This document shows positions 4,219 to 43,754 of a DNA stretch of 64,000 nucleotides, piece by piece. The stretch lies in assembly GCA_947565425.1 (NCBI GenBank), contig CANOFW010000009.1, positions 42,747 to 106,746 on the forward strand, given 5' to 3'. Under the pieces are notes generated by a model that was not told where the DNA came from, made no database searches, and was given only the letters and a program-made list of their open reading frames with translations. A program made the translations under genes and the position numbers. Numbering within the stretch: the first letter of the stretch is position 1; every line of letters starts with the position of its first letter. This stretch comes from an uncultured Lachnospiraceae bacterium. GTDB lineage: Bacteria > Bacillota > Clostridia > Lachnospirales > Lachnospiraceae.

Positions 4219-4239
4219 GAGAAAGGGGCATTTTGTACA

Positions 4240-5103: not shown

Positions 5104-5183
5104 AAGGGAGAAAACATCAAAGGACGAAAAAGCAGGAGAAAATACGAATTTACAGCCCATGGATGGGAGGATAGGATAGAATC

Positions 5184-5645
5184 ATGAAATCGAGACGCCA
5201 CGCAAAAATATTAGAGATTATTGCCAAAAATAATATCGAGACGCAAGAAGAGTTGTCAGATTGTTTAGAACGTGAGGGCTTTCGTGTGACGCAGGCGACT
5301 ATTTCCAGAGATATCCGGGAATTGAAGTTGACAAAGGTTGCCGGGAAAGCGGGACGCCAGAAATATGTGTCTTTGGGGGAAAGCTATGCGGATATGAGGG
5401 AGAAATATGTCCGTATTTTTCAAGACGGATTTGTTTCTATGGATATGGCGCAAAATATTTTGGTGATTAAAACGGCATCCGGTATGGCGATGGCAGTTGC
5501 GGCTGCACTGGACGCGATGGACTGCCATGAAATTGTGGGCAGCATTGCGGGGGATGATACCATCATGTGCGCGGTGCGGACGGTGGAAGATACGGAACAA
5601 TTGATGAAACGCTTGCGAAGGCTTGTGGAAGGAGAGTACACATAA
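5184..5645 (+). CDS. argR: Arginine repressor
   Basis: Hexameric arginine-responsive DNA-binding protein controlling arginine synthesis and catabolism. The 153 residues are the normal length. The N-terminal winged helix contains the recognition segment VTQATISRDIRELKL. The C-terminal oligomerisation and arginine-binding domain carries GSIAGDDTIMCAVRT, with the paired Asp residues that contact arginine. It sits directly upstream of recN, as in Bacillus and Clostridia (ahrC-recN). An 80-base gap separates it from nadK. Confidence 0.95.
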   Translation: MKSRRHAKILEIIAKNNIETQEELSDCLEREGFRVTQATISRDIRELKLTKVAGKAGRQKYVSLGESYADMREKYVRIFQDGFVSMDMAQNILVIKTASGMAMAVAAALDAMDCHEIVGSIAGDDTIMCAVRTVEDTEQLMKRLRRLVEGEYT

Positions 5646-5680
5646 GATTTGCCGAATGAGAGAGTAGAAGGAGAATAGAT

Positions 5681-7372
5681 ATGTTAGTAAGTCTGCATGT
5701 AAAAAACCTGGCATTGCTGGAGGAGGCAGAAGTAGAGTTTGGAAATGGCTTGAATATCCTTTCCGGAGAGACAGGAGCGGGAAAGTCTATTATTATCGGT
5801 TCTATCAACCTTGCTCTGGGTGAAAAAGTAGCAAAAGAAATGCTCAGAGATCAGGCGGAGTATGCCTTGGTGGAATTGGTCTTTCGGGTGGAGGACGAAG
5901 CGCAGCTTAGACAGTTAGAGGAAATGGATATTTATCCCGAAGACGGCGAGGTTATTATGTCGCGCAGGATTACGGCGGCAAGAAGCGTGGGGAAAATTAA
6001 TTCAGAGACGGTTTCAGCTTCTTGTATGCGGAATGTAGCGTCTCTTCTCATTGACATTCACGGGCAGCATGAACATCAATCGCTGTTGCATAAAAAGAAA
6101 CATTTGGAAATCCTGGATGAATTTGCCGGAGCGAAACTGAATGGAAAAAAGGAAACCTTGAAAAAATATTACCAGGAATATCAAAAAGTGCTCGAGGAAC
6201 AGCGTCAGGCATTGCAGGATGGAGAAGGAAGAGAGCGGGAGCTTTCTTTTTTGGAATATGAGATACAGGAAATTAAGGAGGCAAACTTACTTCCTGGTGA
6301 GGATGAGGAATTAGAAGCGGCTTATCGTAAAATGGCAAATAATCGAAGTATCATGGAAGCTGCGGGAAATGCCTACGAGATGACCGGCGCGCAAGAGAGC
6401 GCGACAGAGCAGATTGGCAGGGCGTTGAGAGAATTGCAGTCAGCATCGGAATACGATTCGCAGTTAGAGGAACTGAGCGGACAGCTTGAGGAGATTGATA
6501 ACTTACTGAATGACTTTAACAGAGAGTTATCCGGCTATATGTCCGACAGTGAGTTTGATGAAGAAGCTTTTTATGAGACGGAGAAAAGATTAGATGTTGT
6601 AAATCACCTCAAAGACAAGTTTGGCGGCAGTATTGATGCTGTGCTGCGTGCGAAGGAAGAAAAGGAGCTTCGTTACCAGCATTTGCAGGATTATGAGGAA
6701 TATCTGGTGCAGCTTGAGAAGCGATTAGCTGAAACAGAGAAGGAGTTGGCGACGATTTCTGGAGAAGTATCTCAGATTCGCCAAAAATTTGCGAAAAAGC
6801 TGACGAAGCAAGTGAAAGAAGCATTAATTGATTTGAATTTCTTGGATGTCAATTTCGTCATGGAATTTAAGGATGCAGGAAAATATTCGTCAAATGGACG
6901 GGACGAGGCGGAATTTTTAATTTCCACCAATCCAGGAGAACCGTTAAAGCCTCTCGGTAAGGTGGCGTCCGGTGGAGAACTTAGCCGGATCATGCTGGCG
7001 ATTAAGACCATTCTTGCGGAAAGCGACCGTATTGAAACCTTAATATTTGATGAGATTGATACCGGTATCAGCGGCAGGACAGCACAGATGGTTGCTGAGA
7101 AAATGAACGTCATTGGTAGAAATCATCAGGTAATCTGCATTACGCATTTACCGCAGATAGCGGCTATGGCGGATAATCATTTCCTTATCAGCAAAAATAT
7201 AGTAAAGAATGGAACTTTTTCAGAGATTGTGCGTTTGCAGGAGGAAGAAAGTATTACGGAACTTGCAAGGATGCTGGGCGGCGTCAAGATTACCGATACC
7301 GTATTGGAGAGCGCAAGGGAAATGAAAGAACTTGCCTGCGCAGCAAAGGAGCCTGAGTCATCAAAATCTTAA
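5681..7372 (+). CDS. recN: DNA repair ATPase RecN
   Basis: SMC-like ATPase recruited early to DNA double-strand breaks. The 563-residue product has Walker A GETGAGKS near residue 30 and the IDIHGQHEHQSLL segment characteristic of RecN. A long central coiled coil (about residues 150-370) follows. The ABC signature VASGGELSRIMLA lies near 430, Walker B TLIFDEIDTGISG near 455, and the His switch CITHLPQIAA near 490. AGAAGGAG upstream of ATG 5681 gives a normal start. Confidence 0.96.
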   Translation: MLVSLHVKNLALLEEAEVEFGNGLNILSGETGAGKSIIIGSINLALGEKVAKEMLRDQAEYALVELVFRVEDEAQLRQLEEMDIYPEDGEVIMSRRITAARSVGKINSETVSASCMRNVASLLIDIHGQHEHQSLLHKKKHLEILDEFAGAKLNGKKETLKKYYQEYQKVLEEQRQALQDGEGRERELSFLEYEIQEIKEANLLPGEDEELEAAYRKMANNRSIMEAAGNAYEMTGAQESATEQIGRALRELQSASEYDSQLEELSGQLEEIDNLLNDFNRELSGYMSDSEFDEEAFYETEKRLDVVNHLKDKFGGSIDAVLRAKEEKELRYQHLQDYEEYLVQLEKRLAETEKELATISGEVSQIRQKFAKKLTKQVKEALIDLNFLDVNFVMEFKDAGKYSSNGRDEAEFLISTNPGEPLKPLGKVASGGELSRIMLAIKTILAESDRIETLIFDEIDTGISGRTAQMVAEKMNVIGRNHQVICITHLPQIAAMADNHFLISKNIVKNGTFSEIVRLQEEESITELARMLGGVKITDTVLESAREMKELACAAKEPESSKS

Positions 7373-7469
7373 TGATTGTATAAATCTCCCAGAGTGAAAA
7401 AATCAGAATTCCACATACTAAAAAAGATTTCAGGTCAGCTTGAAATTTTTTGAGAGGGTGTGTGAGAAG

Positions 7470-10651: not shown

Positions 10652-13600
10652 ATGTTTGACCAGCAAGGAGAATATCGGGAAGGTTTTACAAAAGGGAAAT
10701 ATGAGATTAAGATAGCAGTTACAGATCATGCGGGAAATGTGGCGGACTATGAGGCGGTATATTATATAGATAAAGTTCCTCCGTCTATTTCTGGGATTGA
10801 TTTTATTCCGCAAATACCTGACGGAGCGGAAGAAACGGCAGGCATGATGGAAGAATTTGCGATTGATGAGTTTACATATGGATATTATTTCAAGACGGAT
10901 TATCAGGTAATTGTAAATATTACGGATGCAAGTCCCTCTTGCGGGCTTGACAAAGTGAAATATCGCTTGTTGTCTTGGCAAGATGGGGAAGAACAGGAAG
11001 AAGTCAATGGTTTTCAGGAAATCATAGATGGAAAGGCAAAGTTGGAGGTGCCCAAAGGATTTCGCGGGCGGATTTTTGTGGAAGTTTTTGACTATGTTGG
11101 TAACTCGCTTGGTGAAAAACTGATAAAAGCAGAGGATGATAGCGCGCCTGTAATTGAAATAACGAATAAAGCAGAAACAAGTTATCGGGATGCCGAAGGA
11201 AACAAGCTTTATACGAAGGGTAATCGTTTTACTGTGAAAATCACGGATATTGTTTCGGGAATTAAGGAGATTGGCTATCAGCAGAGTGCGGAAAGAAATT
11301 CGTATGCCAGACGAACAATTGCTTTAGACAACAATAGATATAGCTTAGGAGAAGATTTAGGGGACGGCTGGTTGGTGACAGGAACGGAGGACAATCTTGT
11401 CACACAGCTTTCCAAAACATTTGATTTTACGGATGATGATAACAATGTCAACGTAACCTTTGATGCAATGGATCATTCAGAGAATCTGGTTCATAATGTG
11501 AAAAGTGAAACGTTCACAGTTGATCAGACGCCTCCAATCATCAAGGTACAATTTGAAGATGACAGAAATTCCTACTATAAGCAAAGTCGAGTTGCTAATA
11601 TTACAGTGACCGAGCGGAATTTTCAGGCTGATATGATAGAAATTGCGATGGTAAATACATCTGGGGAGGTGCCAACGTATACCTTTATTGATAAATCTTC
11701 CACGGAACATGTTGCCGTTATTGCATTTGGTGAAGGCGACTATACCTTTGAACTTAAGGGGACAGATTTGGGTAATCAGTCGGCGAAGGTTGTTTATGAA
11801 GGAGATCATGCGCACGCATTTTGCATTGACAAGACAATACCAGAAGTTAAGATCATGGATATTGACGGAAACTTTCAACGCGCCGTAAAAGCAAATGTTA
11901 AAATAGCAGATGCTCGTTCGGGGATTGCTAAAGTGGAATATTTGTGGGATGATGGATTTTTGTTAGAGGAAGGAGATTCGCAGTATCAGACAGATTATGT
12001 AGAGTTTAAGGAGTATATAGATGGTAAGTCAGAGTATCAGATGATTCTGCCCTGGAACTTAGCAAAATCTGTTCCCGGTAATCGACATACCTTGCATCTG
12101 AGAGTTACCGATAAAGCCGGAAATGTCTATGATGACGTAGAACCTGTTACAGATCTAATCGGCAGTGATATGCTTCCGCCGCAGATTGAAAGTATTGAAA
12201 TAAGAAAGCCTCAAAGCGATCAATCCGAAGGTATTTTGAAGTTTTTATCATTTGGTACATTTTATAAAAATACCGTTGAAGTTGCAGTAAAAGTAAACGA
12301 TAATGAGGCAAAGGAAGAATACTATGCTTCCGGGGTACAGAGCGTTAAGATAAATGGAAGAGAAACCATTCAAAGCAAGGAAACAAAGGAATATGTTTTA
12401 GTTGTGGAGCCGGATGAAATATTGACAGGGATGCGCATTAGCGTTGAGGATAAGGTGGGTTTAACCACAGAAGCATATGCAACAGATATTCCTGAGCGTG
12501 GAATGATTCGCAGCAATGATTTAATCATTGAAGATGATGCTCCCACTATCGATTTTGGCGATATTTTTCTTCATGGCCATGAAGACGATAAGGGGCGTGT
12601 ATGGTTTGGCAAAGGTGATGATAGTATTGAAATGATGATTACGGTCGCTGATTGTCAGGGTTCTTTACACAGCGGATTGTTTGCTCTTACCATCAAAGAT
12701 AATGGACAAGTGAAGTATTCAAATGCAGACTTTTCATTTAAGACAGAAGAGCATCTTGAAAGGTTCCGAATTGGCGATTTAAGTAATGGAGAGCATGTAT
12801 TTACCGTGGAAGTGGAAGATAATTGCGGTAACATGGTCAGTGATTCTATTACTTTTTATAAGGATGCCAATCCACCTGAAAAGGGAATCGTTACGGCGAT
12901 TTCTCCGGAAAGCGTAAATATCGGCACCAATCAGTGGTTTGACAAAGAGGAAGAAATTACATTTCGTGTGGACGCTGCGGATGATGCATCTGGAATCAAG
13001 AATATTTCGCTCCACATTAATGGCGAAAGCTTTCAGTATGCGCATGATCAGATACAATCCGATGAGGCGGGCTATTATGTTTTAGCCAAGACAACCGATA
13101 TCAAACCAGACAAGGAACATAAATATGTGGTAACGGGAACTGTGACTGATTTTGCACATAATGAACTTGCATTGGAGCAGTTGGTGGTTTATAAAGATTT
13201 TGAAAATCCGACCATTGAACGGTTTACCGTACAGAAGAAATCGAGTACATGGGATAAGATTCTCAAAGTGCTTACCTTTGGCATATACTCAAATGATACC
13301 TTGATTTTTAAAGCTTACACAAAAGATATTGATTTTGACAGTGGCATAGATTATGCAACAGTCCAGTATGCGGGCTTATCAGAACCAGTGCAAATGACGG
13401 ATGAAGGGAACGGTGTATTTTCGGTAAGTATTTCGGCGAAGGGAACGGCCTTTGAGAGTGATATTCTAGTGAACGTATATGATCGTTATGGAAAAGTCAG
13501 TCTTTCCTGTCCGAATATTTCCGATGCCAAGGGGGAGGCTGTCTCAAAGGGGAAGCTGGCAATGATAGAGACTGATTTGCCCATAGTAACTTTTAGTTTG

Positions 13601-16447
13601 CCGAGAAGCGACAGTATTCCCAGAAATGACGGCCAGATATGGTATCGTTCAAACAAAACAATTAAATTAACCGTGCAGGATATACATTCTGGTATAAACA
13701 ACATTGACTTATCTGTCAATGGCGCTGAGGTTTTGGAAGATAAAAAGGGCAATGCGTTATTAAAAACAAGCATAACGGAGGCAGCGGATGCGCGCAACAA
13801 AGATAAGCAAAAGTATACGTTTGATACAAATTATTTATCCTCCATTTGTGGGGATGCTTCCAATGGGAAATATAGGATTGCTGCCCAAACGACGGATAAT
13901 GCCGGTAATGTAGATAACCATAAAGCTGTCTATTACCTGGATGAAGTTTCTCCCACTATCGACAGGATTGACTTTATTCCAAAAACGTCTGACGGAATTA
14001 AGAATACGTCAGAATTTATTGAGGAGATGGTGTATGGCTATTACTTCAAGACCGATTTTAAGGTTACCATAAATGTTTCAGACGCCAAGCCATCTTCCGG
14101 TCTTCATGAAGTGAAATATCGGTTGGTGCCCTATGAGAATGGCAAGAAACAAAAAGAAATCAGGGGCCTGCAAAAGATTAAGAATGGTAAGGCGACTTTA
14201 GATGTACCCAAAGGATTTAAAGGGCGAATTTTTGTCGAGGCCTTTGATTATGTGCGTAATCGCTCAGGAGAGAAAACAGCCAAAGCTTACGTTGTGGATA
14301 GCGTTGCGCCAGATATTAAGATAACAAAGAATGCAGATACAAGTTACCATGACGCTGCTGGCAATCCTCTTTATGTCGAGACAAACAGCTTTACCGTTGT
14401 GATGACCGATACTGTTTCAGGAATCAGGCAGATTGGGTATGTGCAGAATGCGGAACAAAATCCGTATGACAGGAAGACCATAGATGTGAATCCTGCTGGA
14501 CATGGCTTACAGGATGATTTAGGAGATGGCTGGGAAGTGACAGGGGTGGACGCTAATCTTGTCACGCAGGTTACGAAAACGTTTACGTTTCCAGAAGATG
14601 ATAATGATGTCATCTTAACGTTTGATGCAACCGATAATGCACGGAACAGAGCCGGGGACGTCCAAAGTGAAAAATTTACCGTTGATAAGACGGCTCCTAT
14701 TATCAATGTTGCTTTTCGTGAAGATGATGATACAGACATGTATTATAATCAAAACCGTATTGCAGATATTACGGTAATCGAGAGGAACTTTGATGAAAGA
14801 CTGATAAAGGTAGAAATTGAAAATATGTTTGGGTCTGTGCCGGGTTACTCTTTTACAGAGAAATCGAATACAGAACATACGGCTGTTATTGACTTTGATG
14901 AGGGCGATTACATGTTTGATGTGACAGGCATGGATTTGGGCGATCATCCCGCAATTGTTAATTTCAGTGGCGGCAATGAGAAGATGTTCTATGTAGATAA
15001 GACAATGCCTGTCGTAGAAGAAAATTTTTCTGAATTCAGTAATTCTAAAGAAAACAGTTTTAATACGGATAAAACGGTAAGTATTACGGTCACAGAGCAC
15101 AACTTTGATCCGGAACTTCTGAATCTGAAAGTTATGAGAAAAGAGGCAGGGGAAGAGCACAGTGCAAAGGATATGGAAGACGCTACGGGTATGGTTCTGG
15201 GCGGTGCAAGGTGGGACAGCACGGGAGATGTCCACACGATCTCTTTTACCTTTGACTTTGATGGTGTCTATCGTATGGAGATGACGCCTGGCGATTTAGC
15301 GACCAATATTGACGACAGGCGCAGTACAGTTATCTTCGAGATTGACAAGACAGCTCCGGTTGTTAGTATGAAAAATGGTTCGTTTGTCGGTGAGGATGAC
15401 ACGGAATTCCTGGATGTTTATCCGTATCCAAGGAAGGACGAGGCTGCGCCAACCGTTGAATTTGAGGATCTGAATTTGTCGCATTTGCAATATAAACTGA
15501 CGGTTTACATTCCTGACTATTCTACTTCTGACGAAGTGGTTGTCAGGCCATCGGTTACAAATGGAACGATTGAAAAAAATAAATATACACTACCGGATTT
15601 CAAAAAAGACGGTGTATATGCGCTTGAATTAGTAGCAGTTGACGTTGCAGGCAATGAAAGCGCTATAAACTATAATACATATGCTCGTATGGTAGATCAA
15701 GATGTGTTAGCGTTTATTATGGAGAGCAACCTTGAGGAGCAAACGGGTGTGTATTCGTTTGAGTACGAAAACGGTGAGGCCATCAGCAAAAAACCGTCAG
15801 ATTTTCAGGACCTGAAGATTTTTGTGATGTCAAAAAAGGCGGCTACGACGGATATTGTCCTGCGTGACAACGAAGGCCGGAATATTTCCACCAATGCACA
15901 ATGTACGGTGGATGACAGCATTTATGGAATAGGTATTTATAATTACTTACTGCGGTCGGATTTCTTTCAAGAGAAGTTTCAGGATGATACGGATGTAGAA
16001 CTGCAATTGACAGTGAAAAATCAGGGGTACCGCATTGATCTTGGCAAAATACATATTGATAATATTGCCCCAACCTGTGTTTTGCCGGATAATTTGCGTT
16101 CATGGCATTGGTTTTATGGTGAATCTGACCGTACGTTCACGCTTTCAAATATTAGTGAACCGGTAGATGCAGATCATTGTGTGATATATGACAATGGGAA
16201 AAAGGTGCCATTTACCTATTCCAGTGATGATGGGGCAATAACCTTTTCTCTTGGAAAGGGGTGGCACAATGTTGGTATTATCCTTACTGATGTGGCAGGC
16301 AATGCAAATAACATACAGGAGAAAGTAAATTTATATATTGGCTATTTTTGGCTCAAGTTCCTTGTGGTGTTATCTGTATTGGCGATTTCAGCTATCATTT
16401 GTATTGTTATCTATTGTTGGATTAGAAGAAGACGGGAGCTTGATTGA
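10652..16447 (+). CDS. Giant Ig-like repeat membrane protein, 5'-truncated
   Basis: Encodes 1,931 residues with no signal peptide. The frame is open further upstream to 10553, and no ribosome site precedes ATG 10652, so the true 5' end seems lost. The body is an array of beta-rich Ig-like modules marked by repeats of 'V.D.AGN' and 'DKT.P.I..' (AVTDHAGNVADYEAVYYIDK, ATDNARNRAGDV, VDVAGNESAIN). About residues 20-420 and 1080-1490 are diverged copies of each other. A C-terminal TM helix (FLVVLSVLAISAIICIVIY) and an RRRRELD cytoplasmic tail anchor it outside-facing. It is probably a surface protein tied to the upstream secretion-type genes; function unknown. It ends at a strong terminator. Confidence 0.8.
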   Translation: MFDQQGEYREGFTKGKYEIKIAVTDHAGNVADYEAVYYIDKVPPSISGIDFIPQIPDGAEETAGMMEEFAIDEFTYGYYFKTDYQVIVNITDASPSCGLDKVKYRLLSWQDGEEQEEVNGFQEIIDGKAKLEVPKGFRGRIFVEVFDYVGNSLGEKLIKAEDDSAPVIEITNKAETSYRDAEGNKLYTKGNRFTVKITDIVSGIKEIGYQQSAERNSYARRTIALDNNRYSLGEDLGDGWLVTGTEDNLVTQLSKTFDFTDDDNNVNVTFDAMDHSENLVHNVKSETFTVDQTPPIIKVQFEDDRNSYYKQSRVANITVTERNFQADMIEIAMVNTSGEVPTYTFIDKSSTEHVAVIAFGEGDYTFELKGTDLGNQSAKVVYEGDHAHAFCIDKTIPEVKIMDIDGNFQRAVKANVKIADARSGIAKVEYLWDDGFLLEEGDSQYQTDYVEFKEYIDGKSEYQMILPWNLAKSVPGNRHTLHLRVTDKAGNVYDDVEPVTDLIGSDMLPPQIESIEIRKPQSDQSEGILKFLSFGTFYKNTVEVAVKVNDNEAKEEYYASGVQSVKINGRETIQSKETKEYVLVVEPDEILTGMRISVEDKVGLTTEAYATDIPERGMIRSNDLIIEDDAPTIDFGDIFLHGHEDDKGRVWFGKGDDSIEMMITVADCQGSLHSGLFALTIKDNGQVKYSNADFSFKTEEHLERFRIGDLSNGEHVFTVEVEDNCGNMVSDSITFYKDANPPEKGIVTAISPESVNIGTNQWFDKEEEITFRVDAADDASGIKNISLHINGESFQYAHDQIQSDEAGYYVLAKTTDIKPDKEHKYVVTGTVTDFAHNELALEQLVVYKDFENPTIERFTVQKKSSTWDKILKVLTFGIYSNDTLIFKAYTKDIDFDSGIDYATVQYAGLSEPVQMTDEGNGVFSVSISAKGTAFESDILVNVYDRYGKVSLSCPNISDAKGEAVSKGKLAMIETDLPIVTFSLPRSDSIPRNDGQIWYRSNKTIKLTVQDIHSGINNIDLSVNGAEVLEDKKGNALLKTSITEAADARNKDKQKYTFDTNYLSSICGDASNGKYRIAAQTTDNAGNVDNHKAVYYLDEVSPTIDRIDFIPKTSDGIKNTSEFIEEMVYGYYFKTDFKVTINVSDAKPSSGLHEVKYRLVPYENGKKQKEIRGLQKIKNGKATLDVPKGFKGRIFVEAFDYVRNRSGEKTAKAYVVDSVAPDIKITKNADTSYHDAAGNPLYVETNSFTVVMTDTVSGIRQIGYVQNAEQNPYDRKTIDVNPAGHGLQDDLGDGWEVTGVDANLVTQVTKTFTFPEDDNDVILTFDATDNARNRAGDVQSEKFTVDKTAPIINVAFREDDDTDMYYNQNRIADITVIERNFDERLIKVEIENMFGSVPGYSFTEKSNTEHTAVIDFDEGDYMFDVTGMDLGDHPAIVNFSGGNEKMFYVDKTMPVVEENFSEFSNSKENSFNTDKTVSITVTEHNFDPELLNLKVMRKEAGEEHSAKDMEDATGMVLGGARWDSTGDVHTISFTFDFDGVYRMEMTPGDLATNIDDRRSTVIFEIDKTAPVVSMKNGSFVGEDDTEFLDVYPYPRKDEAAPTVEFEDLNLSHLQYKLTVYIPDYSTSDEVVVRPSVTNGTIEKNKYTLPDFKKDGVYALELVAVDVAGNESAINYNTYARMVDQDVLAFIMESNLEEQTGVYSFEYENGEAISKKPSDFQDLKIFVMSKKAATTDIVLRDNEGRNISTNAQCTVDDSIYGIGIYNYLLRSDFFQEKFQDDTDVELQLTVKNQGYRIDLGKIHIDNIAPTCVLPDNLRSWHWFYGESDRTFTLSNISEPVDADHCVIYDNGKKVPFTYSSDDGAITFSLGKGWHNVGIILTDVAGNANNIQEKVNLYIGYFWLKFLVVLSVLAISAIICIVIYCWIRRRRELD

Positions 16448-35471: not shown

Positions 35472-35561
35472 ATGAAAGACTTTTTGAGGGGCTGTGGTAT
35501 TATCATACTCTGTTTCATTGCAATTGTGGCGGCAAACCTGCTGCTTGAATATTTCTTCTAA
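35472..35561 (+). CDS. 29-residue hydrophobic peptide
   Basis: ATG 35472 lies two bases after the secreted-protein stop and encodes KDFLRGCGIIILCFIAIVAA then NLLLEYFF. A charged start and one TM span resemble a membrane microprotein. No ribosome site beyond coupling with the upstream stop is seen, and its last 47 bases overlap the end of the convergent aminotransferase gene. It is possible but unproven. Confidence 0.35.
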   Translation: MKDFLRGCGIIILCFIAIVAANLLLEYFF

Positions 35562-36642
35562 GCAGGCAGGAGATGAGCGCGTCATTCATTTCCGGCATCA
35601 TGAAACAGAAGCGAATGTATTTATTATCGAGAAAAGGAAATGTAGAGCAATCACGAATCATCATTTTTTGCCGGATCATTTGGTCGAATAGCATCCCTGA
35701 TGACAGGGTATCATCAAGAAGGCGCACTAGCATAAAGTTTGCATGGGGTGGATATACCTTGAATCTGCCATCGGCCAGGAGTTTCTCATAGATTCGGTTG
35801 CGTTCCCGCGAAATCAGGGCTCGGGTACGCGTGATGTAGGAAGAATCCCGGAACATAATCTCACCTGAAATTGCAGCCAGGGAGTTTATGGTCCAGGGAT
35901 TTTTTCTTGTATTGATTTCTTTGATGAGATCGCGGTTTCCGGTGACGGCATACCCTAAGCGCAGTCCGGGGCAGGCAAAGAATTTGGACGTTCCGCGCAG
36001 GATGACGATGTTGTTGTAATAAGCGGTCAGCGGAACCGAGGTAATCTCTTCGTAGTTGTCCGCAAATTCCACATAGGTCTCATCCACCATGACAAAGATG
36101 TCGTTCTGTTTGCACACATCGAGAATTTTACGCATCGTGCGGCGCGCAATGGCTCCCGAGGTGGGGTTGTTGGGGTTGCAGATGACAACCAGGTCAATGC
36201 TCTCATTGAGGTGTGCGGTGAAATCATCTTCGTTGAGAGCGAAGTCTTGTTCTTCTTTCAAAGGATAATACAGGCAGGTGCCGCCCCCTAAGGCGACTTC
36301 TCGTTCGTACTCCGAGTAGGTGGGACCGATAATCAGCGCCTTTTGCGGGCGTTCAATCTGAATAAACAGGGAAATCAATTCGGTGGAGCCGTTGCCCATA
36401 ATGATGTTTTCGTAGTCGGTGTCTGTGTAATCGGCAATGCATTTGCGCAGAGAGGTGTATTCCCTGTCTGGGTATGTGGTAATGGCGTCAAGATGACTTG
36501 CCAGGGTGTCACGCAGCATGGGAGAAATGCCAAGCGGGTTTACGTTGGCGCTGAAACTGATAATTTCCTCTTTTTTGATGCCGTAAATCTCTTCAATCTT
36601 TTCTAAATCACTGCCGTGAAAATGGTCTTTGTGCTGAATCAT
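35515..36642 (-). CDS. PLP aminotransferase, HisC/CobD-like
   Basis: Fold-type I pyridoxal-phosphate enzyme of 375 residues. It has HGSDLEKIEEIYGI and SFSANVNPLG at the N-terminus (CobD-like), GNGSTELISLFIQ, the Asn-Pro motif VVICNPNNPTSG, MVDETYVEF, and the PLP-Lys motif RGTSKFFACPGLRLGYAV. The arginine near IRFCFM completes the site. It is either histidinol-phosphate aminotransferase-like or L-threonine-O-3-phosphate decarboxylase-like; no his or cob genes lie nearby to decide. The start follows AAGGAGG. Confidence 0.8.
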   Translation of the reverse strand: MIQHKDHFHGSDLEKIEEIYGIKKEEIISFSANVNPLGISPMLRDTLASHLDAITTYPDREYTSLRKCIADYTDTDYENIIMGNGSTELISLFIQIERPQKALIIGPTYSEYEREVALGGGTCLYYPLKEEQDFALNEDDFTAHLNESIDLVVICNPNNPTSGAIARRTMRKILDVCKQNDIFVMVDETYVEFADNYEEITSVPLTAYYNNIVILRGTSKFFACPGLRLGYAVTGNRDLIKEINTRKNPWTINSLAAISGEIMFRDSSYITRTRALISRERNRIYEKLLADGRFKVYPPHANFMLVRLLDDTLSSGMLFDQMIRQKMMIRDCSTFPFLDNKYIRFCFMMPEMNDALISCLLRRNIQAAGLPPQLQ

Positions 36643-36742: not shown

Positions 36743-39700
36743 TTGCAGAGAAAAATGGAAGAGTTGGCAGCAGGAATTTGTACCCGCCAGACCTCTATTT
36801 TACAGTTCCTTCCAGAGAAATTGGAATTTGAGGTCGTGGAGGGTAACGTTTACAGCGGGGAATTTACAATAATCAGCAGTGCAGGTGTGCCAGTGACAGG
36901 GATGGTCTGTTCCACCAGCGCGCGGATAAAGTGCCTGGATGCACAGTTTGCAGGGATAAAGATTACGCAGAAGTTTGAATTTCGCAGCGCGGGCCTGTCA
37001 GACGGGGAGAGGCAGGAAGGAAAGTTTCAGATTATTAGCGACCAGGGGGAGTATGAGCTTCCCTTTGTGGTGTCTGTCTGTAAGGATTATCCACAGAGTT
37101 CCCAGGGCAAGGTCAAAGGGATTGTTGATTTTGCGAATCTGGCGCGCGCGTCTTTCGACGAGGCGGTTAAGGTGTTTTCACAGCATAAGTTCGCGGCTGT
37201 TTTTGCGCCCGGTGAGGAGGAACAACAGCTAATCTATCGCGGGCTGTGCCATAAGCCGTGTACGCGCACGCAGGTGGAGGAATTTCTGATTGCCTCACGC
37301 AAGAAGAAACGGGTATTGTTCGAGGTGGAGGAGGCAAAGCATGATTTTTGCGGGGTGACTGAGAACCGTCAGGAATGTGTTGTGTTGCGCAAAGAGGAGT
37401 GGGGGCATCTTGCCATTGCGGTGTCGGCGGATGGAGCATGGTTAAAACCGCGCAAGTCGCGGATGACCGATGAGGATTTTGTGGGCAGCCGAGGGATGGT
37501 AGAGTACTTGATTGACGCAGGACAGCTCCATATTGGTAAGAATTACGGCAAACTGATTTTAAAGACGCCGTTTCAGAAAGAGGAGATTTCGATTTGCGTG
37601 ACCAGAGAGGAAGTGCTTGGGGAACATCCCATTTGGGAAATTCAAAAGAAACAGGCGCAATTAATGACAGATTATCTGAGATTCGGTATGCATCAGTTGG
37701 TAACGGGTGCGTGGGCGAAGCAGACAATCCGCAATTTGGAAGAATTGCTGGAATTTTTGCCGGACAATCAGTGGTATGTTTTAGCGAAAGCACAGGTGTA
37801 TTTTGTAAACCGGCAGCGGCAGGAGGCGGAATGGGTATTGACTGCATTTCCGCGCAATAAGGTAGATAAGGATGCGCCCTTATATGCCTATTATTTATAT
37901 CTCACGACCTTGAGGGACCCGGAGCCCGCATATGTCAATAAATGTACCGCTAAAATCCGTAAAATATATAATAAGCGTCCCGATGATTCTTTGCTTTTAT
38001 GGATGCTGTTGATTTTGGATGAAGAATTGAACTATAGCAAGGGCAAGAAGTTGGAGACGATTGCCAGGCATATCCGGCGGGGGAATGAGAGCGTACTTCT
38101 TTATTTGGAGGCGTTTCGGATTCTGGAAAAGGAGCCGTATCTGTTAAGCAGTCTATCTGGTTTCGAGAAGAAGACGTTGCATTTTACGGTGAAACACAAG
38201 GCGATGACGAAGGGAATCGCGGAGCGAGTAGTGAAATTGCTGCCAGAGATTCCGCTTTATGAACCCGTCTGGTATGAGATCCTGGTGTCTTGTTATGAAG
38301 CGTCGCCGGGCAGAGAATCCTTGCAGGCAATTTGCAGTTATTGTATCAAGGGGCAGCATTATGGCAAGGAATACTGGAAATGGTTCCAGCGGGGAATTAT
38401 ACAGGAACTACGGATTGCCGGTTTGTATGAGGCATGGGTGCGCTCCGCGGATGAGGAACAGATGGCAAAGATGCCCAGGCAGATTGTCCTGTATTTTCAG
38501 TCTTACAGCAATTTTGCGGGAGAAGCGGAGGCATTGCTGTATGCGGCGATGATTGAGAACAAATCGCAATGGAAAAGCGTATGGCCCCATTACAGCAAGA
38601 ATATCCAGGATTTTGCTTTGAAACAATTGTCAAGCGGTAAGATAGACCGTGCGTTTGCCACCGTCTATGGGGAGGCGTTGACACCGAAGCTTTTGACCCC
38701 GGAACGAGCCAAGGATATGGCGAAGGTATTGTTTGCCTGCGAGGTGTGTTGTGACAATTTAAACGCCCGTAGCCTGGTTGTCTGCCAGCATACGCTGAAG
38801 AAAGAACAGGTGGCGCCGATTGTCCATGGTAAGGCATATGTGACGATTTATGGCAGTTCTTATAAGTTTCTATTGGAGGACGCCCAGGGCAGGCGGTTTG
38901 TCCCCGATGAGGAGCTAGCGGTGAAACCGTTGCTGGCCAGCGAGAAGTTTTTACAGGCGGGTATGGCTTGCGCCCCGGAGAAATTACCGTATCTGCTGAA
39001 ATATTTTGACAAGAAGAAAATATGGCAGACGTTTGAAGAAGAAGATCTTGCATATTTACGGGTGCTGGTGGATGCGCCGGAAATCAGCGAGGCATACCGC
39101 AGAGAGCTTCGCTTGCAGATGATCGCCTATTTCTATGATAATTACACAGGAGATGCGTTGGATGAATTTCTGTTGTCACTGTCTTTGGAGGGAATCGGCA
39201 GCCGCGACAGGGAGAAGATTATGCGGCTTTTGGTGGCGAGACGCCATTACAGGCGCGCGTATGAGCTTTTACAGGCTTATGGCACAGAATGTATCTCTCC
39301 TTCCAAGCTGGTCTATGTAATTGGGCATCGTATGGATGAGATGGAGCAGGAGGGGCAGGAGGAAGCCGATGAATTCCTGCTGGCGCTGTGCAGGGAGGTG
39401 TTTTTGCGCGGGAAGTATAATGAGCGGATTTTGGTATATTTGTGCAAATACTTTGCGGGTAGCCTTAGTGAAATGTTAAAGCTTTGGGAGTCGGCGCGCA
39501 GTTTTGTAGTGGATGCTTATATGTTGGAGGAACGCTGTCTGCTGCGTTTTCTGAACACGGGAGATTTTTCCGTCCGTTTGGAAGAGGTATTTGAGGGGTA
39601 TGTACACAACCTTGGCAAAGACGATGTGATTTTGGCGTATCTAAGCCAGATGGCGCATCTGTATGTTGTGAGGGATGCTGTGGTGTCAGAATTTGTGTTT

Positions 39701-40288
39701 CACAAAATTGGCGAGCTGTGCCGCCGGGAACAGCAGTTAAATCACATATGCGAGCTGGCATTTTTGAAGTGGTGTACCTTGGAATCGTTGGCTTCGGCAG
39801 AGGAGTGGAAGCTTGCAGAGCCAGTATTGCAAAAATTGGTGCGAAAGGGACAATGCTTTGCCTTTTTTGAATCTCTGCCCGGGAAATTGCGGGAGAAATA
39901 TATGCTCCATGATCGGACTGTGGTGGAGTATCGCACAGAGCCCCAGGCGAAGGTATTTATCAATTATCTTCCTGTGGGATATACCAAGTATGTGGAATGT
40001 GAGATGACACAGATGTATGATGGAATTTTTGCCAAGGAGTTTCTTGTATTTTATGAGGAGCATATTCCATATTATATCAAAGAGGAAATGGATGGCGAAT
40101 ATAAGGTGACCCAGAGTGGTCAAATTGTAAGGCAATGTCTTGTGGATAGCGGTGAGGAGGGGCGGCTCGCGCTGATTGACGATATGATGGCGTCCTGGCA
40201 GATGAAGGATGAAGCCACCTTGTTAAAACGGTTAGAGACTTATGGACGGACAGATGAGATGGTGAGGCGTGAATTTACGCTGCTGTGA
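36743..40288 (+). CDS. DUF5717 family protein, first gene of an uncharacterised operon
   Basis: A very large soluble protein of 1,181 residues. The N-terminal 130 residues are beta-rich and MSP/Ig-like (FLPEKLEFEVVEGNVYSGEF, YELPFVVSV). A second beta domain (LAIAVSADGAWLKPRKSR...ISICVTREEV) follows. From about 300 the protein is a long alpha-solenoid of TPR-like helical pairs (LLEFLPDNQWYVLAKAQVYF, DDSLLLWMLLILDEELNYSK). The last 150 residues return to beta (VFINYLPVGYTKYVECEMTQ). No signal peptide or TM helix is present. TTG 36743 has AGGTG six bases before it; ATG 36755 is the alternative. I recall the DUF5717 name from Lachnospiraceae; no function is known. Confidence 0.8.
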   Translation: MQRKMEELAAGICTRQTSILQFLPEKLEFEVVEGNVYSGEFTIISSAGVPVTGMVCSTSARIKCLDAQFAGIKITQKFEFRSAGLSDGERQEGKFQIISDQGEYELPFVVSVCKDYPQSSQGKVKGIVDFANLARASFDEAVKVFSQHKFAAVFAPGEEEQQLIYRGLCHKPCTRTQVEEFLIASRKKKRVLFEVEEAKHDFCGVTENRQECVVLRKEEWGHLAIAVSADGAWLKPRKSRMTDEDFVGSRGMVEYLIDAGQLHIGKNYGKLILKTPFQKEEISICVTREEVLGEHPIWEIQKKQAQLMTDYLRFGMHQLVTGAWAKQTIRNLEELLEFLPDNQWYVLAKAQVYFVNRQRQEAEWVLTAFPRNKVDKDAPLYAYYLYLTTLRDPEPAYVNKCTAKIRKIYNKRPDDSLLLWMLLILDEELNYSKGKKLETIARHIRRGNESVLLYLEAFRILEKEPYLLSSLSGFEKKTLHFTVKHKAMTKGIAERVVKLLPEIPLYEPVWYEILVSCYEASPGRESLQAICSYCIKGQHYGKEYWKWFQRGIIQELRIAGLYEAWVRSADEEQMAKMPRQIVLYFQSYSNFAGEAEALLYAAMIENKSQWKSVWPHYSKNIQDFALKQLSSGKIDRAFATVYGEALTPKLLTPERAKDMAKVLFACEVCCDNLNARSLVVCQHTLKKEQVAPIVHGKAYVTIYGSSYKFLLEDAQGRRFVPDEELAVKPLLASEKFLQAGMACAPEKLPYLLKYFDKKKIWQTFEEEDLAYLRVLVDAPEISEAYRRELRLQMIAYFYDNYTGDALDEFLLSLSLEGIGSRDREKIMRLLVARRHYRRAYELLQAYGTECISPSKLVYVIGHRMDEMEQEGQEEADEFLLALCREVFLRGKYNERILVYLCKYFAGSLSEMLKLWESARSFVVDAYMLEERCLLRFLNTGDFSVRLEEVFEGYVHNLGKDDVILAYLSQMAHLYVVRDAVVSEFVFHKIGELCRREQQLNHICELAFLKWCTLESLASAEEWKLAEPVLQKLVRKGQCFAFFESLPGKLREKYMLHDRTVVEYRTEPQAKVFINYLPVGYTKYVECEMTQMYDGIFAKEFLVFYEEHIPYYIKEEMDGEYKVTQSGQIVRQCLVDSGEEGRLALIDDMMASWQMKDEATLLKRLETYGRTDEMVRREFTLL

Positions 40289-40306
40289 TGAATATGGAGA
40301 GAAACA

Positions 40307-41542
40307 ATGAAACCGACAAAAGAGGAATGGTATATTGGAATAGAGGCAGGCAGACAATGGACACAGATAAGCTGTTACCATGCGGGGCTTGCAGAACCTG
40401 AGACGAAGAGCACTCTGGCAGGGACAGAGGTGTATCAGATTCCTACGGCGATCTGTAAGCGCAAGCATGGCGGGCAGTGGTGTTTCGGCGAGGAGGGCAG
40501 GCGTCTTGCCGAATCCGGAGAAGGATATTATGCCGCCGACCTTTTAAAACGCGCGTTGCATAAAGAAATCGTTACGCTGGACCGCGACTATGCGGCGCAG
40601 GATTTGTTGGGCGTGTTTTTTCGCAAGCTGCTCAGGCTGGCGGTTCCGCCAAAGGGCGTCAGGGCGGTGACGAAATGCGTCTTTTCTCTGGAGGAGGTTA
40701 CGGAGGAAGCAGTACTATTTTTGCAGCAGTTTGTAAAGAAGCTGGGGTTTACAGAATCCCAGGTACAGATTCAGGATCATCGTGAGAGTTTTTATGCTTA
40801 TGTAGTTTCGCAGGATCCATCTTTGTGGAAACATCAGGTGTTGCTGTTTGAGGAGGAAGGCAAGGGCGTGTACTGCCGCCTGTTCTCCTGCAATCCGAAA
40901 ACAAGTCCGATGATTGCGCAAGTGGCGGAGGCATTTATGGGCAAGTTGCCAGAGGATGAGAGGAAGCGCGACATAGAGTTTTCCTTGATTGTGAAGAAGG
41001 CTTTGGCGGGCAGGATAGTCACTGCGGCATACTTGATAGGCTCCGGTTTCGAGGGCGGATGGATGGACGAATCTCTACAGCTTATCTGCCGCAACCGCAG
41101 AGCGTTTCAGGGGAAGAACCTCTACACCAAGGGCGCGTGTTATGCGGGAATGCTGCTTCATCATAAGGAGGAGGCGAAGACCGTATATTTCTGTGATTAC
41201 AAGGTCAGGGAAAATATTATGTTAAAGGCAGTTAAGGGGGATGCGGAATTTTTCTTTCCACTTATTGAGGCGGGCAGCAACCGTCATCAGGTGAAGAAAG
41301 ACTTACGCATTTTATTGGAGGGAGAGCCAGTTTTGGAACTTTGGATGCAGCAGCCGGGAAGCCGGGAGGCGAGAATTGAGAGTTTGGAGTTATCGGGACT
41401 TTCTCCTGACGGAAATGAGAGAAGCAGGCTGTCTTTCCATATTTCTGGTACAGAGGGCGGCAGTCTTCTTTTGAAAGTGCGCGAGTTGGGTTGGGGCAAG
41501 ATTCAGCCGGCTAAGGGATTGGAATGGCAATTTGAGATTTAA
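40307..41542 (+). CDS. DUF5716 protein with degenerate Hsp70/actin-like fold
   Basis: The 411-residue product begins WYIGIEAGRQWTQISCYH, aligned in place with the phosphate-1 loop of Hsp70/actin ATPases. The usual Asp is Glu and the GTT is changed. A second strand pair, VLLFEEEGKGVYCRLFSC, sits where phosphate-2 belongs. AAYLIGSGFEGGWMDESLQL then GKNLYTKGACYAGMLL matches the adenosine-binding end. A C-terminal beta domain (LELSGLSPDGNERSRLSFHI) resembles a substrate-binding part. Nucleotide binding may be altered. It follows DUF5717 by 18 bases and is probably its partner. Confidence 0.72.
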   Translation: MKPTKEEWYIGIEAGRQWTQISCYHAGLAEPETKSTLAGTEVYQIPTAICKRKHGGQWCFGEEGRRLAESGEGYYAADLLKRALHKEIVTLDRDYAAQDLLGVFFRKLLRLAVPPKGVRAVTKCVFSLEEVTEEAVLFLQQFVKKLGFTESQVQIQDHRESFYAYVVSQDPSLWKHQVLLFEEEGKGVYCRLFSCNPKTSPMIAQVAEAFMGKLPEDERKRDIEFSLIVKKALAGRIVTAAYLIGSGFEGGWMDESLQLICRNRRAFQGKNLYTKGACYAGMLLHHKEEAKTVYFCDYKVRENIMLKAVKGDAEFFFPLIEAGSNRHQVKKDLRILLEGEPVLELWMQQPGSREARIESLELSGLSPDGNERSRLSFHISGTEGGSLLLKVRELGWGKIQPAKGLEWQFEI

Positions 41543-41610
41543 GCGTTTGCAGCGAAGAAAGAATGGAGAATGTTTAAGTTTCCCCTTTTTTTTGTAATAA
41601 CCTATATTTC

Positions 41611-41741
41611 AGTACCAAAAGGTCTTGTTGCCTTTGGCAGCATAGACATCTTGCACAAAAAGTGCCTGGAAAGCTAGCTTTTCATAGCGCTTTTATGTGC
41701 AAAGTGTTTCCATCACAAAGTGATGGAAACCTTTTGGTACT
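41611..41741. repeat. 131-bp nested palindrome
   Basis: Perfect 13-bp ends (AGTACCAAAAGGT and complement) lead through partly conserved arms. Both arms have TTGCACA.AAAG.GC to a central GAAAGCTAGCTTTTC dyad at about 41669-41683. Each arm also folds alone (TTTCCATCAC..GTGATGGAAA on the right). It lies 38 bases before the next gene. No clear target duplication was found. Confidence 0.8.
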
Positions 41742-41779
41742 ATGCATATACAAAATGGGGAAACTCAAAGGAGAATAAT

Positions 41780-42571
41780 ATGAGCAGGATGTGGATATGT
41801 GAGGGACGCATAGCGCAAAAAGGGCTGGCAGTAAATAATAGAGTAAGCTTGTATTCTCTCGAAGAGTTGTGTTATTATCTATACCAGAATGCGGAGTCTG
41901 TGGAGGAAAGCTTATACAATGAGGCATTCTGCCAATGGCTGTCGGAGGAACTTGGTATGGAGGAACTGGCAAAAGAGCTTCGCCAAGGGGTTGAGCAGGG
42001 CAAAAGCGGCGGTTGGTGTATGCAGCAGATTTTGTTGTCGAGTGGTTTGTATAGCCATAGGGAGATTAGCCAGGCAGTTTCCATTGTGCAGAGTATGGAG
42101 AGTACGAGTCCTGCGCAGCGGGCGAAACTGAAAGGCGATCGTCTGTTGCGGTCGGGCAAATACCGGCAGGCATGGCTCGCCTATCAGCAAGCATTGGAGG
42201 AAGAGTCAGATTTGTTTTTCCAGGGAAAAGTTTGGCATAATCTGGGGACTTTGTATGCCAGGCAATTTCTATTTGAGGCGGCGGGGGAGTGTTATAAACG
42301 CGCTTATGAGATTGGGCAGCAGACGGTGAGCAGTGAAGCTTATCTCTTTGCGCTGACATGTAGGGATGGGCAGGCGAAAGAGTTAGAGCCGGGCGGCGCA
42401 CAGGCTTGGGGAAGCGCAGATGGGCAGATTACCACACAGAATTCAGGAAATATCGCGGGGGCGCTCAAAGCGCTGCATAAGTTGAAATCATCTGGAGACC
42501 GCACAGGCTATGAGGGAATGGTGGAAGATTTACTGTTCAAATTAAGATTAGAGTATAGGAAAAGTGAGTAA
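41780..42571 (+). CDS. TPR-like operon protein of unknown function
   Basis: The 263-residue product starts at ATG 41780 behind AAGGAG; the frame to 41720 runs into the palindrome. The N-terminal half is helical (YSLEELCYYLYQNAESVEES). A region with ALxxYxxAL-type TPR pairs follows: KGDRLLRSGKYRQAWLAYQQ and VWHNLGTLYARQFLFEAAGE, then CYKRAYEIG. No membrane segment. This protein likely scaffolds or regulates the DUF5716/DUF5717 pair; that role is inferred from position only. It overlaps the next gene by a few bases if GTG 42564 is used. Confidence 0.7.
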   Translation: MSRMWICEGRIAQKGLAVNNRVSLYSLEELCYYLYQNAESVEESLYNEAFCQWLSEELGMEELAKELRQGVEQGKSGGWCMQQILLSSGLYSHREISQAVSIVQSMESTSPAQRAKLKGDRLLRSGKYRQAWLAYQQALEEESDLFFQGKVWHNLGTLYARQFLFEAAGECYKRAYEIGQQTVSSEAYLFALTCRDGQAKELEPGGAQAWGSADGQITTQNSGNIAGALKALHKLKSSGDRTGYEGMVEDLLFKLRLEYRKSE

Positions 42572-42572
42572 A

Positions 42573-43754
42573 ATGGGATTATTCAGAAAAAAGAAAAGAC
42601 CTAGATATATTGATGAGTTATGGAATTCGGATGCGCAGCAAACACCCAAACAAAAAAAGGTTTCCGCGCCCGTGAAAGCAACAGAGCCCAAACAGAATAC
42701 GGCGATGGAGTATTGCGAGCAGATTCTAACAGCGGCTAAGGCGTTGGAGGAGACAAAGCGTGATTATAAAACGGCAACAGATTATCTAACAGATATTCAG
42801 AAAATCGAAGAATTGCCGGAAAAGGAATTTGCAGAAATACTGGACGTAGCGAAACATGTCTCAGATTTGAGTCAGTCACGGGATGCTTATTTGAATAAAT
42901 CGCGTAATATTTCAGATTCCCAGTTTGCCCAGATGGAGCAGTTGGAGGAGCAGATGCCGGGCATTATCAGGCGTTTGCAAGAAAATGAAGCATATCAGAC
43001 GACGGTTAAGCGGGATATGCAGTATCTTGAGGGCGAGCGGGAAGAGTGGCGTTATTATAAGGATGCGCTTGAGCAGGAGAGCCAATTGTTGCGTAAATTG
43101 CTGTATACCCTGGCAGGCGTGTTTGTGGCGGCGATTATTTTGATTATTGTGCTGAGTGTAGTTCTTCGTTTTGATATGATGCTGCCGCTCCTTTTAACGA
43201 TGCTCGTGGCGGCGGCTGTGGGCACAGGGATGGTTTGGCGTCTGCAAAATGACAATTTGGATATCAAACGTTCCCAAGCGAATATCAACCGTGCAATTAC
43301 GCTGTTAAATAAGATTTCTTTTAAATATGTGAATGTAACAAATGCCGTCGACTACGCTTGTGAAAAGTATCACGCTAAGAATTCTTATGAGTTGAATTAT
43401 ATCTGGGAGCAGTATTTAGAAGAGGTGCGTGAGCGGGAGAAATATGAGAAAACAAATGATGAACTGGAGTTTTTTCATGATAAGCTAATTATGCTGCTGC
43501 AAAAATATCGTCTTTATGACGCCAAAATTTGGATTCATCAGGCACATGCGCTTTTGGATAAGAAAGAGATGGTAGAGGTGAAGCATGAGTTGTTGGTGCG
43601 CCGCCAGAAATTGCGTGCAACGATGGATGGGCAGATCGCGAATATCCAGAAAGCAAAAGCAGACATCCTGAAAATTGTCAAAGAGCGTCCTGGTGATGAT
43701 GCGGAGATAAAAAATATTTTACAATCTGTGGATGAAATTTGCGGGCTGGCATAG
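42573..43754 (+). CDS. Coiled-coil protein with two TM helices
   Basis: About 393 residues. A basic start (GLFRKKKRPRYIDELW), a long coiled coil (50-170), two adjacent TM helices (LLYTLAGVFVAAIILIIVLS and MLPLLLTMLVAAAVGTGMVW), and a second coiled coil to the end. Both coiled coils face the cytoplasm if the loop is outside, forming a membrane-anchored hub. ATG 42573 is used; GTG 42564 is in frame and overlaps the upstream stop. It is fourth in the DUF5717-DUF5716-TPR operon and would tether that complex to the membrane. No family is recognised. Confidence 0.68.
   Translation: MGLFRKKKRPRYIDELWNSDAQQTPKQKKVSAPVKATEPKQNTAMEYCEQILTAAKALEETKRDYKTATDYLTDIQKIEELPEKEFAEILDVAKHVSDLSQSRDAYLNKSRNISDSQFAQMEQLEEQMPGIIRRLQENEAYQTTVKRDMQYLEGEREEWRYYKDALEQESQLLRKLLYTLAGVFVAAIILIIVLSVVLRFDMMLPLLLTMLVAAAVGTGMVWRLQNDNLDIKRSQANINRAITLLNKISFKYVNVTNAVDYACEKYHAKNSYELNYIWEQYLEEVREREKYEKTNDELEFFHDKLIMLLQKYRLYDAKIWIHQAHALLDKKEMVEVKHELLVRRQKLRATMDGQIANIQKAKADILKIVKERPGDDAEIKNILQSVDEICGLA

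Follow-up and report, generated by a model that had tools for sequence, protein, structure and literature searches.

The operon and its four proteins

The DNA considered here, called the window throughout, is a stretch of 64,000 nucleotides from the genome assembly of an uncultured Lachnospiraceae bacterium (GCA_947565425.1, contig CANOFW010000009.1, positions 42,747 to 106,746 of the forward strand). Our subject is a run of four co-directional open reading frames (ORFs) at 36743-43754 of the window, which were found where an earlier reading of the sequence alone (the original prediction) had placed a four-gene operon.

36743..40288, + strand: DUF5717, putative giant scaffold; 1181 amino acids (aa), TTG start with an alternative ATG at 36755
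40307..41542, + strand: DUF5716, predicted lidless Hsp70 without catalytic residues; 411 aa, degenerate nucleotide-binding domain plus beta substrate-binding domain
41780..42571, + strand: TPR-like putative adaptor; 263 aa counted from ATG 41780, ORF open from GTG 41720
42564..43754, + strand: predicted two-transmembrane (two-TM) coiled-coil protein, candidate optional membrane anchor; start GTG 42564 or ATG 42573

The first two proteins match Pfam families above the curated cut-offs, specifically DUF5717_N (PF18984, 924.6 bits) and DUF5717 (PF18983, 304.2 bits) for gene 1 and DUF5716_C (PF18980, 267.7 bits) for gene 2. All Pfam TPR matches of the third lie below the cut-offs (best E = 1.8e-5), the Pfam scan of the coiled-coil gene gave no credible match, and none of the window proteins reached the cut-off of an NCBIfam family. 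The TPR gene probably starts at ATG 41780, judging by the AAGGAG ribosome-binding site in front of it, and with this start the gap between it and DUF5716 is 237 bp. The coiled-coil gene overlaps the TPR gene by 8 bp if it starts at GTG 42564, or follows it after 1 bp if it starts at ATG 42573. Its product contains a single long hydrophobic segment (approximately residues 172-224), compatible with a two-TM hairpin; the same scan found no long hydrophobic segment in the other three operon proteins.

Predicted folds of DUF5716 and DUF5717

DUF5716 had been read as a degenerate protein of the Hsp70 fold, and its structural model, its matches in the PDB, profile comparisons, and a tree all bear this out. 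The model (predicted local distance difference test score, pLDDT, 93.1; predicted template modelling score, pTM, 0.90) includes a confidently modelled beta substrate-binding domain (SBD-beta), and its order of an actin-like nucleotide-binding domain (NBD) followed by a beta-sandwich SBD is, as predicted, the fold that defines the Hsp70 superfamily. The best PDB matches are DnaK and Ssz1, spanning the NBD and the SBD-beta, and the titles of the 50 structural matches listed, so far as they are informative, indicate Hsp70-type chains; Sse1 matched no better than DnaK. The last element of the model is a beta strand (residues 406-410) with no C-terminal helices, i.e., the alpha-helical lid is absent. 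That DUF5716 is merely some actin-like protein, such as PilM, FtsA, or MreB, is disfavoured by the SBD-beta and by a bridging protein of related bacteria, HspB, introduced below.

The giant alpha-solenoid with Ig-like ends that had been claimed for DUF5717 is likewise present in its AlphaFold2 model (pLDDT 87.2; pTM 0.60), a model more trustworthy in its local folds than in its overall shape, with an Ig-like N terminus and a beta domain near the C terminus. Specifically, PDB matches point to PapD/MSP-like (Ig-like) domains at approximately residues 18-114 and 190-290, and the model continues with an alpha-solenoid (about 296-663), a beta insert (about 665-729), a second solenoid (about 733-1052), and a C-terminal beta domain (about 1058-1129). 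The solenoid has weak PDB matches, and a DUF5717 profile searched against PDB sequences gave one match at chance level (E = 0.74).

Fuller clusters in sister families

What identifies the system is a set of larger clusters in sister families of the same order, which combine three intact Hsp70s, a GrpE-domain protein, and a VWA domain. Their gene order is DUF5717, HspA, GrpE-domain protein, HspB, HspC, HspD (with the VWA domain), and TPR protein, in some cases followed by the coiled-coil protein. Thirty sister loci from 10 families were picked, 10 by a DUF5716/HspB match and 20 by a GrpE match, and some of them are cut by contig ends; the first ten loci served to build the profiles used for typing, and loci beyond one designated L043 were typed with those profiles only. 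Among these 30, the GrpE-domain protein and HspB were each found in 30, HspC in 27, HspA in 25, HspD in 23, DUF5717 in 22, the TPR protein in 19, and the coiled-coil protein in 6, and all seven genes occur in the order given in 18 loci. HspB is the next gene after that of the GrpE-domain protein in 30/30 loci, with nothing called between them in 29/30.

In L043, HspA (HSP70, 228 bits), the GrpE domain (43.9 bits), HspC (206 bits), and HspD (308 bits, plus the VWA domain) were recognized. The GrpE-domain protein is about 280-650 aa long and carries GrpE at its end, and the sister TPR protein scores strongly. By length and Pfam coverage, HspA, HspB, and HspC seem to stop after the beta domain. 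The VWA metal site is intact in all seven HspD rows compared, which have DTTGS, GGDIPES, and TDAPPH, segments that we take to be the VWA metal-site motif. None of the eight sister proteins scanned reached the cut-off of an NCBIfam family.

Three further observations concern individual clusters. In L045 (genome G152, family f4), a separate ORF upstream encodes the N-terminal part of DUF5717 (E = 4.6e-62), and at 4205-7384 of that locus the HspD gene and the TPR gene are each in two ORFs, through decay or assembly error; family f4 is the nearest to the reduced form. In one genus (L053, 12346-14415, - strand), the ORF immediately upstream of DUF5717 is HtpG-like (Hsp90), an assignment made by eye from the N-terminal sequence alone. 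In family f5, the clusters of L236, L238, and L244, all picked by a GrpE match, are worn down to the GrpE-domain protein and HspB, with HspA in 2/3, which points to the degenerate Hsp70 and the GrpE-domain protein as the most tightly paired members.

Descent of DUF5716 from HspB

HspB links the two forms. In L043, it matches DUF5716_C (70 bits) and HSP70 (41.9 bits) alike. A profile of 28 DUF5716/HspB rows, searched against PDB sequences, found DnaK as its best match (E = 2.9e-13), across the NBD and SBD-beta, and the 60 listed of its 109 matches are Hsp70s by name, one being labelled putative uncharacterized. In pairwise hhalign comparisons, DUF5716 matched HspB at 1.3e-35, HspC at 6.3e-20, and a four-row DnaK/HspA/HspD set at 1.4e-8; DUF5717 matched its sister-family counterpart at 2.1e-43 in a profile comparison.

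The Hsp70 tree has 49 rows (10 HspA, 10 HspB, 10 HspC, 7 HspD, 11 DUF5716, and 1 DnaK) and long branches, including L056_B, L050, and L047. DUF5716 forms a single clade in it (11 rows, support 100/99) within a clade of HspB and DUF5716 (21 rows, 100/100), adjoining the HspB of family f4 (100/97) and then that of family f22 (100/99), with HspC as the sister group. By this tree and the HspB bridge, DUF5716 is, as judged from sequence, a member of the Hsp70 superfamily by descent. On this tree, the degenerate Hsp70 would predate the split of the Lachnospiraceae, and the intact Hsp70s would have been lost afterwards in that family. As a separate observation, the HspB of two family f22 loci (L245 and L247) has just 412 aa, about the length of DUF5716, and stands beside other Hsp70s, possibly through an independent shortening.

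The distribution across the order, class, and phylum adds to this. PF18980 was found in 89 of 196 genomes of the order (82 of them over the cut-off), 22 being Lachnospiraceae and 67 belonging to other families, where the matches are mostly weaker and often fall on two neighbouring ORFs of about 500-570 aa. The original prediction, which knew both DUFs only from Lachnospiraceae, was thus too narrow, given these divergent relatives in other families. The GrpE-type protein occurs in 69 of the same 196 genomes, under 14 family codes, and in none of the Lachnospiraceae among them. DnaK is the only HSP70 match above 54 bits in four Lachnospiraceae genomes; their weaker HSP70 matches are mostly ORFs of MreB length, and the one in the genome of the window was read as MreB by eye. 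Pfam gave no GrpE or DnaJ match for the four window genes, and the DnaJ matches of that genome sit on other contigs. Beyond the order, PF18980 was found in 10 of 291 genomes of the class, all Lachnospiraceae, and 7 of 348 genomes of the phylum match the GrpE-type profile, solely over its last ~90 positions and in ORFs of 184-240 aa, a pattern suggestive of ordinary GrpE. A strong match in one genome of family f8 (G312, ~5% contamination) could reflect a spread of the reduced form, with contamination an equally likely source.

Nucleotide pocket

Equivalents of T11, T12, E171, D194, and T199 are kept in HspA (10/10 rows), HspC (10/10), and HspD (7/7); the K70 equivalent could not be located by residue pattern and stands outside these counts. 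The T11-T12 pair and T199 occur in 0/21 rows of HspB and DUF5716 (10 and 11 rows), and a glutamate in the E171 column, whose alignment may be off by two residues, in 0/11 rows of DUF5716. The lack of the catalytic threonine and glutamate of the P1 and P2 loops, together with that of the lid and of GrpE and J-domain partners encoded in the operon, speaks against placing DUF5716 in the ATP-cycling class of Hsp70s, and ATP hydrolysis by it is unlikely on these residues. The conservation of the pocket, which had been proposed as a point to inspect, has therefore a divided answer: the catalytic residues are lost, and a few pocket residues remain.

Conservation and linkage within Lachnospiraceae

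In a survey of 150 Lachnospiraceae genomes, one per genus, DUF5716 was found in 145, DUF5717 in 147, and both in 144; one genome has DUF5716 alone (G020), three have DUF5717 alone (G098, G128, and G146), and two have neither core gene (G029 and G091). The coiled-coil profile matched in 67 of the 150, two of the matches being weak. Linkage was examined in 90 loci from 90 genera, picked among the genomes with a DUF5716 match. DUF5717 is linked to DUF5716 in 90/90, a count conditional on that choice, the TPR gene in 89/90, and the coiled-coil gene in 39/90. The TPR gene stands directly next to DUF5716 in 83 of the 90, after a called 95-aa ORF in 1, and forms one ORF with it in 5; in L187 alone it was not found. 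On a DUF5717 tree of 87 of these loci plus an outgroup, the DUF5716-TPR fusion takes at least two changes and the coiled-coil gene 11.

The exact order DUF5717, DUF5716, TPR, coiled coil was found in 72 of 80 named loci from a public genome collection, the 80 top-ranking among at least 589 relatives, a set biased towards the sequence of the window; by title they are mostly Lachnospiraceae, with a few named Eubacterium, Eubacteriaceae, or Clostridiales bacterium. Of the other eight, four (L064, L101, L123, and L141) run into a contig end; L126 begins at one and carries an additional ORF, ORFs are split in L110 and L122, and L117 gave no match to the TPR profile in the gap.

The co-occurrence and linkage of the operon genes are well beyond chance, and the co-directional four-gene operon stands as proposed. 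The further claim that the genes travel together holds for the core three, including the five fusions, and does not hold for the coiled-coil gene. The same division applies to the proposed membrane-tethered assembly: the anchor is optional, being present in 39/90 loci and 67/150 genomes, so that "membrane-tethered" fails for most of the genera sampled. Defence genes are typically patchy in distribution. The operon is near-universal in the family, 143 of the 145 positive genomes have a single DUF5716 match, and a horizontal defence island was rejected on these grounds.

Interpretation and alternatives

We propose, at a probability of roughly 0.62, that the operon descends, in reduced form, from a dedicated multi-Hsp70 machine of the order and that DUF5716 works in it as an Ssz1-like, non-cycling module. 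Its ancestry is well supported; its function we infer by analogy. Sister clusters with GrpE and intact Hsp70s, the position of DUF5716 within HspB, and the absence of the GrpE part from the Lachnospiraceae among the 196 order genomes together indicate a remnant machine without its ATPases. The lineage-restricted, chaperone-type machine that the original prediction had listed among its possibilities is the best reading.

The fuller form would comprise three Hsp70s with intact motifs (one with VWA), HspB without them, a protein ending in GrpE, the TPR adaptor, DUF5717, and sometimes the two-TM coiled-coil protein, and would be the ATP-driven version of the machine. In Lachnospiraceae, the intact Hsp70s and the GrpE part would have gone, and DUF5717, DUF5716, and the TPR adaptor would have been kept, with the membrane anchor in some genera. 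DUF5716 would then be a lidless, non-cycling module whose beta domain holds a segment of a client or partner. DUF5717, with its Ig-like domains and solenoid, and the TPR protein could form the frame that presents DUF5716, held at the membrane where the anchor exists, and release or hand-over, perhaps to the housekeeping DnaK, would proceed without ATP hydrolysis by the machine itself. A broader statement, that nearly all Lachnospiraceae genera run a hydrolysis-free, chaperone-like machine (a dead Hsp70 on an Ig-solenoid scaffold) and that sister families keep the full multi-Hsp70/GrpE/VWA machine, we put forward tentatively, at somewhat less than even odds.

Several observations weigh against the proposal of a reduced, chaperone-type machine. 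First, the complete counts of GrpE and HspB in the sister loci are partly due to the way in which these were selected, and a 73-row profile of Lachnospiraceae DUF5716 alone found no Hsp70 among PDB sequences, so that the sequence link to Hsp70 rests on the HspB bridge, with the fold match as separate evidence. Second, the pocket is incompletely erased: the aspartate of P1 remains in 10/10 HspB and 8/11 DUF5716 rows, that of P2 in 9/10 and 6/11, and the glycine of the adenosine loop in 21/21, a single T11 occurs in 3 HspB rows, T12 in 2 DUF5716 rows, and 2 HspB rows have a glutamate in the E171 column. DUF5716 may therefore still bind nucleotide without hydrolysing it. Third, the mean top-residue frequency is 0.43 in the SBD-beta-like part of DUF5716 (residues 321-411), as against 0.59 and 0.62 in the adenosine-loop region and the segment next to it (residues 239-282), and client binding may thus not be the main constraint. 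Finally, no J domain was found in the seven L043 cluster proteins scanned (the whole genomes G187, G194, and G252 each hold just one J-domain match), the flanks of the operon in the 90 family loci hold no gene class consistent enough to name clients, the membrane anchor is missing in most genera sampled, and one or both core genes were absent from the searches in 6/150 family genomes, some of them fragmentary.

A strong rival, though one that we consider unlikely, is that DUF5716 no longer binds clients at all and that its Hsp70 fold serves purely as the structural hub of a cell-envelope or cytoskeleton assembly. The model for such a role is that of PilM and GspL, whose actin-like fold serves as a platform in the cytoplasm. 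The loss of the catalytic motifs, the PapD/MSP-like N-terminal domains of DUF5717, the lower conservation of the SBD-beta relative to residues 239-282, and the optional coiled-coil partner, whose apparent two-TM hairpin would leave both ends on one side, are all in line with it. The retention of a confidently modelled SBD-beta argues against it, and so does the sister cluster, whose GrpE domain and intact Hsp70s make it resemble a chaperone set.

It is improbable, in our estimate, that DUF5716 is an accessory of the housekeeping DnaK, i.e., an exchange factor or co-chaperone of the Hsp110 or Ssz1 type. Hsp110 requires ATP binding, Sse1 is no better a structural match than DnaK itself, and this draft genome has the operon and dnaK on separate contigs. 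Quite improbable is the reverse course of evolution, in which a small core was ancestral and the active Hsp70s and GrpE were added by the other families. Among the 291 class and 348 phylum genomes, no machine of this kind was found beyond the order, so that the gene content has no outgroup to root it directly, which leaves room for such a gain; against it, DUF5716 is nested within the HspB of full clusters, on long branches, and the retained gene order is the full order minus HspA, GrpE, HspC, and HspD. A conflict (immunity) system akin to those centred on GAP1-N2 GTPases is very improbable; its similar part list (HSP70, GrpE, a shortened HSP70, and a beta-domain plus TPR protein, with VWA in a related theme, in the portions available of PMC7159879) is set against the lack of a GTPase Pfam match in the four window genes and the seven L043 cluster genes, the lack of a PADLOC match for the four window proteins (E <= 0.01; four of the six sister proteins scanned gave weak matches), and the near-universal presence in the family described above.

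If the proposal of a reduced machine is right, its evolution was unusual, in that a multi-Hsp70 machine would have lost its catalytic members and kept its pseudo-chaperone almost everywhere. Further, two large families of hitherto unassigned function, both present in 144/150 genera sampled, gain an ancestry and a testable biochemical hypothesis.

Surroundings of the operon

Two further features lie in or beside the operon.

35515..36642, - strand: pyridoxal phosphate (PLP) aminotransferase, divergently transcribed, directly upstream of the operon
41573..41769, no strand assigned: repeat resembling a miniature inverted-repeat transposable element (MITE), in the DUF5716-TPR gap; outside the machine

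The query 41565-41775 contains nested inverted repeats and has 44 full or partial matching stretches in its own genome, a count that includes its own place and some stretches on both strands. We rejected the 237-bp gap as the border of a separate unit, since it carries a repeat element present elsewhere in the genome. The divergent PLP aminotransferase is the commonest neighbour of the operon, standing upstream of DUF5717 in 34/90 family loci; a valS-like gene is found downstream in 22/90, and genes for purine metabolism and amino-acid transport appear repeatedly (all names but that of the window's own aminotransferase were judged by eye from the sequence). As a clue to a pathway or client these neighbours were discarded, as the aminotransferase, valS-like, purine, and transporter genes form no pathway for the operon. 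Elsewhere in the window, 10652-16447 encodes a 1931-aa protein with bacterial Ig-like (Big) repeats.

Comparison with known systems

By analogy and not by kinship, the nearest analogue of DUF5716 would be Ssz1 of the fungal ribosome-associated complex (RAC). In the portions available of PMC7083937, Ssz1 is described as having no lid and no ATP hydrolysis and as binding chains through its SBD before a canonical Hsp70 takes over; it still binds ATP and partners with the J-protein Zuo1. The DUF5716 model shares the missing lid and the retained SBD-beta. It differs in lacking the P1 and P2 threonines, in standing in an operon with no recognized J domain, and in its apparently separate origin, from a bacterial HspC/HspB lineage. 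The likeness to the DnaK-GrpE system lies in the predicted fold and domain order of DUF5716 and in the intact-motif Hsp70s and GrpE domain of the sister clusters; unlike that system, the sister clusters have up to four Hsp70s plus a scaffold, TPR protein, and VWA domain, and the Lachnospiraceae form has no intact-motif Hsp70.

The Pfam entries PF18984, PF18983, and PF18980 have descriptions without function, fold, or a link to Hsp70. Searches of the open-access literature, outside which most subscription journals lie, showed no description of this cluster and nothing on DUF5717, and DUF5716 is mentioned there once, in work on an unrelated subject. The closest described theme, as far as the available portions of the article go, is the HSP70/GrpE part of the GAP1-N2 GTPase systems of Kaur et al. 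2020 (PMC7159879), which have HSP70, GrpE, an HSP70 without the peptide-binding domain, and an FNIII protein fused to TPR or DnaJ. Those systems are centred on a GTPase and GAP1, and this sets the window genes and the L043 cluster, with no GTPase match, apart from them. Judged from the open-access literature, the sister clusters look like an undescribed kind of Hsp70 system, in which a dead Hsp70 follows a GrpE-domain protein, an Hsp70-VWA fusion keeps an intact metal site, and a giant scaffold completes the set.

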